From the NCBI GenBank assembly GCA_005880445.1, contig VBGJ01000039.1, forward strand, positions 1 to 32,027: 32,027 nucleotides of DNA. The letters run 5' to 3'. Positions 15,304-32,027 of this stretch are shown here, in pieces; position 1 is the first letter of the stretch; every line of letters begins with the position of its first letter. The stretch is from Chloroflexota bacterium (GTDB taxonomy: Bacteria; Chloroflexota; Dormibacteria; Aeolococcales; Aeolococcaceae). A program made the position numbers and the translations under genes. Under the pieces are notes generated by a model. The model was not told where the DNA came from, searched no databases, and saw only the letters and a list, made by a program, of their open reading frames with translations.

Positions 15304-15604
15304 TCTCGATCCCGGGCTTCCGACGGACCCCCGGCCGCCGCGACGCCGCCGCAGTGCCGCGCGAACGCCGGCGCTCGTCGATCCCGCCGACGTGCCGGAG
15401 GACGCCGCCGGCCGCGTCGAGCTGATCGCCATCCGCGCGCCCGCCGACGTCCTCGACTCCGGTGACGCTGCGCCGGCGCCGCCCGCAGGGCCGACCGGCT
15501 GGCTGATGCCGCTCGTGCTGCTGTCGAACGGCTGGGTCGCCGTCGGCGTGCTCGCAGCACTGCTCGTGGTTGTGTTCGTCATCGGCGTGGTCTTCACCCG
15601 CTGA
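15296..15604 (+). CDS. Small protein with C-terminal transmembrane segment(s)
   Basis: ORF 15284..15604, likely GTG start at 15296 overlapping the parA stop; C-terminal VAVGVLAALLVVVFVIGVVFTR hydrophobic. Confidence 0.6.
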   Translation: MTDLDPGLPTDPRPPRRRRSAARTPALVDPADVPEDAAGRVELIAIRAPADVLDSGDAAPAPPAGPTGWLMPLVLLSNGWVAVGVLAALLVVVFVIGVVFTR

Positions 15605-15611
15605 GTGCTCA

Positions 15612-15773
15612 GAACGTCCGATCAGGGGTGACAGCCCACCGGCCGCCCAGGGCGTAAGGAGGTCGCGGTGGCCCCCGCGACCGACGGGAGCGGCAGCGGA
15701 CAGCAGTCAGGCTGTCCGCGCAGCGGCAACCAAGGCGGCCGGTGGGCTGTTACCCGTACTGATACGTCCGTTG
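15612..15773 (+). ncRNA. Candidate structured RNA or MITE-like element (unknown family; strand assumed)
   Basis: 22-bp arms 15626-15647 / 15734-15755 (one G-U), extended by ATCAG 15621-15625 / CTGAT 15759-15763 and AACG 15613-15616 / CGTT 15769-15772; encloses two perfect hairpins 15661-15682 (8 bp) and 15696-15719 (9 bp). Confidence 0.55.
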
Positions 15774-15805
15774 CAGAACCACAGGTGTGAAGTAGCATCG
15801 CCGAC

Positions 15806-16438
15806 GTGGGTCACGCCGACGACGTCGCTGAGCTCGGTGAGGCAGAGCTCATCGCACGGGCGGTCGGGGGCTCGTCGCCGGCGCCTGATCTCGTGGAGAT
15901 GGGGGCGCGCGTGGCGCGGATACCGATGTGGGAGCGTCGCGCGCTCGGTCGGCGGGGGCTCGTGCGCGACCACGGCGTGGGCACGGAGCGGGCCGCGCGG
16001 CTCGAGGCGATCTGGGAGCTGGCCGACCGGTGGTACCCGGATGACCGCCCGTCGGTCGCCGCCCCGCGCGACGCGCTGCTGCTGCTCGAACGGTTGCGCA
16101 CCGCGAGGCGCGAGGAAGTGGTCGTGCTGTTGCTCGACGCGCGCCATCGGCCGCTGGGCGTCGAAACCGTCGCCGTGGGTACGGTCAACGCATCGCGGCT
16201 GCAGCCGCGGGACGTCTTTGCCCCAGCGTTGCGCAGTGGCGCAGTTGCAGTCATTATCGGCCATAACCATCCGAGCGGCGACTCATCGCCGAGCCGCGCA
16301 GATCGCACCGTCACCGCGGCACTCCGCGCCGCGGGCGAGCTGCTCGGCGTGTCGGTGCTCGACCATGTGATCGTCACGAAGCGCGGACATCATTCGTTTC
16401 GCGACGCCGAGGCGTGGGACGTCGAGGCCGTGGCGTGA
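15806..16438 (+). CDS. radC: RadC-family JAB/MPN domain protein
   Basis: JAMM motif GHNHPSGDSSPSRAD followed by LLGVSVLDHVIVTKRGHHSFRD. GTG start. Confidence 0.9.
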   Translation: MGHADDVAELGEAELIARAVGGSSPAPDLVEMGARVARIPMWERRALGRRGLVRDHGVGTERAARLEAIWELADRWYPDDRPSVAAPRDALLLLERLRTARREEVVVLLLDARHRPLGVETVAVGTVNASRLQPRDVFAPALRSGAVAVIIGHNHPSGDSSPSRADRTVTAALRAAGELLGVSVLDHVIVTKRGHHSFRDAEAWDVEAVA

Positions 16439-31892: not shown

Positions 31893-31957
31893 CACCGCTG
31901 GGCGCGGGTCCTGCCTGAAGAACCGGGGAGTACACACCGGAGCGAGGGCGTCCCGCA

Positions 31958-31979
31958 GGCCCGAGTGGTCCCTCGGGCC
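31958..31979 (+). other. Hairpin downstream of hsp20 (terminator-like without a T-tract, or part of a structured RNA)
   Basis: GGCCCGAG-TGGTCC-CTCGGGCC, perfect 8-bp stem. Confidence 0.4.
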
Positions 31980-31995
31980 GAGGGTCGAGCGGCGA

Positions 31996-32015
31996 GCGAC
32001 GGCGACTGCCGTCGC
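31996..32015 (+). other. Second hairpin near the window end
   Basis: GCGACGGC-GACT-GCCGTCGC, perfect 8-bp stem with a 4-nt loop. Confidence 0.4.
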
Positions 32016-32027
32016 CGACCGCGTACC

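Follow-up and report, generated by a model that had tools for sequence, protein, structure and literature searches.

The described systems closest to the element considered here are bacterial MITEs, the REP/BIME/REPIN and SLS palindromes, and hairpins maintained by template switching. Bacterial MITEs are short, dispersed, intergenic sequences that lack open reading frames, carry terminal inverted repeats and are present in some species and absent from others. The REP/BIME/REPIN and SLS families (PMC2267715) are dispersed extragenic palindromes often located downstream of or between genes, with REPs favouring the sites downstream of genes (PMC3733652). Template switching during replication is reported to homogenise the arms of inverted repeats and invert their spacer (PMC8604942), and to create, maintain or repair RNA-type hairpins via multi-base compensatory change (PMC8794818). 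The element upstream of radC resembles each of these systems in part. Its best explanation, to which a probability of roughly 0.7 is assigned, is that it belongs, as a single copy among many, to a MITE-like superfamily of palindromic repeats in Dormibacterota that lack ORFs and whose stems are rewritten by template switching.

The window, which is the entire 32,027-nt stretch of DNA analysed, contains the element in a 201-nt gap between the stop codon of the upstream ORF at 15604 and the radC start at 15806 (Table 1). The flanking genes encode a ParA-like ATPase, a small protein with no Pfam match whose sequence reads as membrane-anchored, and RadC, which is identified from its own sequence and conserved position. 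A preliminary description of the locus reported an element filling most of this gap, with 22-nt arms containing one G-U pair, two outer helices, two internal hairpins and CAGAAC at both edges, and all of these features are present; 21 of the 22 P1 pairs are Watson-Crick. The folding energy of -110.9 kcal/mol is well below that of dinucleotide shuffles (-79.6 +/- 4.2 kcal/mol; z = -7.45; 0 of 200 as low), and the reverse strand folds with equal stability, in line with a near-palindromic sequence. None of the Rfam 15 covariance models reached the gathering threshold, and a second threshold likewise gave no match, in agreement with the initial impression that the element is unlike familiar RNA families.

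Table 1. Coordinates of the radC element, the second copy in the window and two further repeat families of relative G009
Feature	Position	Strand	Remarks
Complete copy: core, long P1 stem and outer helices	15612..15773	.	Fold and covariance-model match; absent at the g6 parA-mem-radC intergenic region
P1 5' arm	15626..15647	+	22 nt; locus-private, outer half G-rich
P1 3' arm	15734..15755	+	22 nt; complements 5' arm, one G-U
Conserved core, three-way junction	15648..15733	+	87-92% identity to 3 same-genome copies; covariance model (CM) E about 1e-29
P2 hairpin	15661..15682	+	8 bp, loop TGGCCC
P3 hairpin	15696..15719	+	9 bp
ATCAG/CTGAT outer helix	15621-15625/15759-15763		
AACG/CGTT outer helix	15613-15616/15769-15772		
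CAGAAC, left of possible 6-bp target duplication	15610..15615	+	Duplication unsupported as a rule
CAGAAC, right of possible 6-bp target duplication	15774..15779	+	Duplication unsupported as a rule
Second copy, variant 1b core, after Hsp20 gene	31917..32027	+	R2 match E 3e-6; cut at 3' by contig end
G009 second family	C31:35504-35629, C32:64977-65096, C32:29055-29187, C32:7677-7771		Loci L256-L277, L238-L255
G009 second family	C1:11188-11315, C36:193098-193230, C36:249870-250001, C13:46092-46225		Loci L256-L277, L238-L255
G009 third family	C13:78775-78974, C13:36243, C13:41567, C32:49219, C36:166517, C36:200942		

The element is not unique in its genome, where the core (about 15641-15740 of the window) has three more close copies. 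A sequence match identifies about eight close core copies in G009, a related genome. Covariance models were built from 12 copies (model 1) and subsequently from 27 matches (model 2, R2). At E <= 0.001, R2 matches number 11 in the window's genome (G000), 16 in G009, 5 in G003 and 3 in G008, and the seven genomes of genus g6 contain 1-4 model matches apiece; the window's organism is itself a Dormibacterota MAG. Other genera of the family gave no match at E <= 0.001, an absence that is soft because the first-look filter limits scoring to few candidates in any one genome. All genomes compared are draft MAGs of 58-98% completeness with approximate gene calls, E-values derive from a short calibration, and single copies such as L397 are possibly products of chimeric assembly. 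The second copy, at the window's right end, matches the atp-operon copy of this genome with 100% identity over 84 nt, and it is severed by the contig end, as expected because repeats break assembly. The element is short, non-coding and ORF-less, with many dispersed intergenic copies. The phages searched contained no member of the superfamily, plasmids yielded one 34-nt match in two records, and a short viral-contig pattern was set aside since its matches occur at chance level only. The literature covered, subscription papers apart, contains no description of the superfamily in Dormibacterota, and it appears to be an undescribed repeat from an uncultured phylum.

Comparison of the copies separates the core from the arms. 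Copies whose cores are 90-98% identical have arms with chance-level identity that are yet complementary. Across 12 copies, 92% of alignment cells pair and 30 of the 47 pairs have changed on both sides; shifting the pairing partner by 1-3 columns abolishes this signal. The three-way junction, with P2 and P3 enclosed by the long stem, is kept across copies. The preliminary description is correct with regard to a real structure whose junction shape persists, but a dispersed MITE-like repeat is a better fit than an RNA restricted to one locus. In genus g6 the arms are common to the copies and resemble terminal inverted repeats, GGTGGGGAGGGCATG, in contrast to the locus-private terminal arms of G000 and G009. 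Two elements, L425 (G023 C34:97135-97214) and L088 (G003 C230:2077-2182), have lost one or more internal hairpins and kept their arms.

Orthologous copies record how the arms and the core change. Between L392 and L396, five clustered changes in the 5' arm are matched by five exactly complementary changes in the 3' arm, while the 92-nt core has 3 differences. The core of L399, and that of G026 at locus A (sucC-sucD), runs opposite to the orthologous cores, although the flanks keep their orientation. In G030, the locus D element carries CGCTGAG in its 5' arm, the inverse complement of CTCAGCG in the host sequence on the right side of the site; the empty sites of this locus and G014 have CTCAGCG or a near match to it, and the orthologous element of G014 has no inverted copy. 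Template-switch hairpins (PMC8794818, PMC8604942) are marked by multi-base changes mirrored between the arms and by inversion of the spacer; both occur between orthologues here, together with arm extension. The cases reported for such hairpins concern RNA genes and short inverted repeats in coding sequence, whereas here a whole dispersed repeat family seems to be shaped. From these alignments we infer that template switching makes the stems locus-private. The copies, each a three-way-junction core closed by a long G-rich/C-rich stem, are dispersed between genes; in the proposed mechanism, one arm or the adjacent flank would be recopied in inverted form after insertion by replication template switching. 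This process would keep the arms complementary while making them locus-private, and it would also flip the core.

Because the arms are apparently rewritten by template switching, covariation in this superfamily is not by itself proof of RNA selection. The covariation proposed as a check in the preliminary description does exist, but given the template-switch marks in orthologues it is no proof of an RNA function. The same description held that the G-U pair and the well-formed hairpins favour an RNA-level structure; for the G-U pair this view is not sustained, and neither it nor the complementary changes speak for RNA rather than DNA, since orthologous arms undergo templated homogenisation at the DNA level. 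Template switching of DNA can generate strong covariation in palindromic repeats, a signal usually taken to prove that an RNA is functional, and caution is warranted. The family is a natural record of how long RNA-like stems may form and remain perfect without pair-by-pair selection, and its host species are related closely enough for single events to be seen.

The origin of the arms was considered separately. Insertion into common pre-existing palindromes is rejected, since 746 kb of G009 contain no palindrome of at least 15 bp with a short loop and the arms are therefore not a common pre-existing target. Random duplication of any flank at insertion, taken as the only source of the arms, is weakened by the mostly G-rich composition of the 5' arms (310 G versus 186 C across 31 arms). 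A speculative extension, given about one chance in five in our judgement and thus improbable, is that the element manufactures its own palindrome, host flank being copied by fold-back during or after insertion of the core or of a short-armed element. If true, each insertion would acquire a private perfect stem, which would constitute a distinct interaction between a bacterial mobile element and its target.

Several orthologous sites lack the element. Among the seven g6 species, locus D carries it in two, and the other five sites are empty with conserved flanks and no palindrome; locus A carries it in six, and the site in G005 is empty, again with no palindrome. The g6 gap upstream of radC is short and lacks the element, and it contains a common promoter-like motif. 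Empty orthologous sites indicate gain or loss of the element in its entirety, and some of them could reflect old losses. Between atpA and atpG, a long palindromic element occurs in five genera and gaps of 0-120 nt occur in others. The core variants at this one intercistronic site (L328-L332) differ among the five genera, with fam3 in G009 and G003 and fam1b in the window's genome.

The most durable alternative, although still unlikely, is that the elements are fixed and ancestral and that gene conversion swaps cores between sites with no new insertion. Core exchange of this kind would generate the same contrast between core and arms, consistent with the similar cores and dissimilar arms within a genome and with an atpA-atpG site where differing core variants from different genera all sit within long G-rich arms. 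The clean empty sites of congeners, which have no palindrome, are what this explanation fails to accommodate. Such conversion may also operate together with insertion.

Somewhat less probable is a cis-acting structured RNA, either riboswitch-like or a protein-binding leader, in which selection acts on the junction at the RNA level and dispersal is secondary. The invariant junction strands, the compensatory changes in P2 and P3 and the presence of an atpA-atpG element in five genera are all compatible with such a role. Against this explanation stand copies adjoining unrelated genes in all gene orientations, a core that can face both ways at a single orthologous site, the persistence of empty sites and of derivatives with P2 or P3 deleted, and the absence of an Rfam match.

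Gene context also bears on a bidirectional transcription terminator whose stem is free to diverge, which we regard as a poor explanation. The 23 copies found with the first model occupy about 11 convergent, 9 co-directional and 3 divergent gene gaps (based on approximate ORF calls), most of them tight; the near-half share of convergent gaps would suit a terminator, as would arms that are G-rich at 5' and C-rich at 3' on both strands. An intrinsic terminator consists of a GC-rich hairpin followed by a U-run, whereas these elements have no U-tract, and a search at the radC element for promoter-like or intrinsic-terminator-like sites found none. Some copies lie in divergent gaps, and others lie inside the ATP synthase (atpA-atpG) and succinyl-CoA synthetase (sucC-sucD) operons, so an obligate terminator is unlikely. 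The neighbouring genes, among them radC, atpG, sucD, leuS, PCMT and SpoVS, are unrelated. Intercistronic REP hairpins slow mRNA 3' decay or damp expression of the downstream gene. By analogy, we infer that the likeliest effect of a transcribed element would be that of a comparable mRNA hairpin, shielding the upstream mRNA by slowing 3' decay or damping the downstream gene, a possible role in mRNA stability that it would have in common with REP/BIME/REPIN sequences. The element would be tolerated rather than required.

With regard to mobility class, the preliminary description named a MITE with a target-site duplication as the main alternative. The dispersed MITE-like repeat is upheld by the same-genome copies, the copies in relatives and the empty orthologous sites. 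The target-site duplication is not: flanking direct repeats of 41 copies average 2.98 nt, compared with 2.95 nt in shuffled pairings (p = 0.45), and a duplication rule is accordingly rejected. For this reason the element is termed MITE-like rather than a MITE. It differs further from bacterial MITEs in its mostly locus-private arms and its elaborate three-way-junction core, and a non-exhaustive genome-wide search found no autonomous partner or transposase. The sole TIR-like pair in G005, located 1.4 kb apart and considered as a candidate autonomous element, proved to be coding DNA. Arms resembling the terminal inverted repeats typical of MITEs are clear in g6, in contrast to G000 and G009. Compared with REP/BIME/REPIN and SLS sequences, the element is larger (about 130-190 nt with variable arms, not a 20-40 nt palindrome with a conserved tetranucleotide), has another architecture and an unconserved stem sequence, and is accompanied by no detected RAYT. 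Mobilisation as a REP/REPIN by a RAYT (Y1) transposase is very improbable: GGAG/GTAG-like tetranucleotides do adjoin both hairpins and the preference for sites downstream of genes is that of REPs (PMC3733652), but Y1_Tnp has no match in G000, G009, G008 or the seven g6 genomes (MAG completeness 86-89%; control genomes positive), and elements of 130-190 nt with long private arms are unlike palindromes of 20-40 bp. G003 has one marginal match to a Y1 transposase. The element is akin to a MITE or a REP-type dispersed palindrome but is assigned to neither class, because neither a target-site duplication rule nor a RAYT was found and its structure is far larger.

Other repeats were observed in the relatives. 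A second family in G009 has an unrelated core, GGCGAGTTCCCG...GGGTGTTTGAGCAA, long and mostly private arms and a loose GGACACACATCC motif, and it often precedes GACCACG. A third dispersed family in the same genome is about 165 nt in length, with the core CCGGCCGGAGCAGGATTCCGGGACCCAGGTCAGA and locus-specific closing stems. In G008, which belongs to another genus, two long palindromic elements (L293; C1:102815-102938 and 103091-103213) lie about 150 nt apart and have an architecture resembling that of the radC element.
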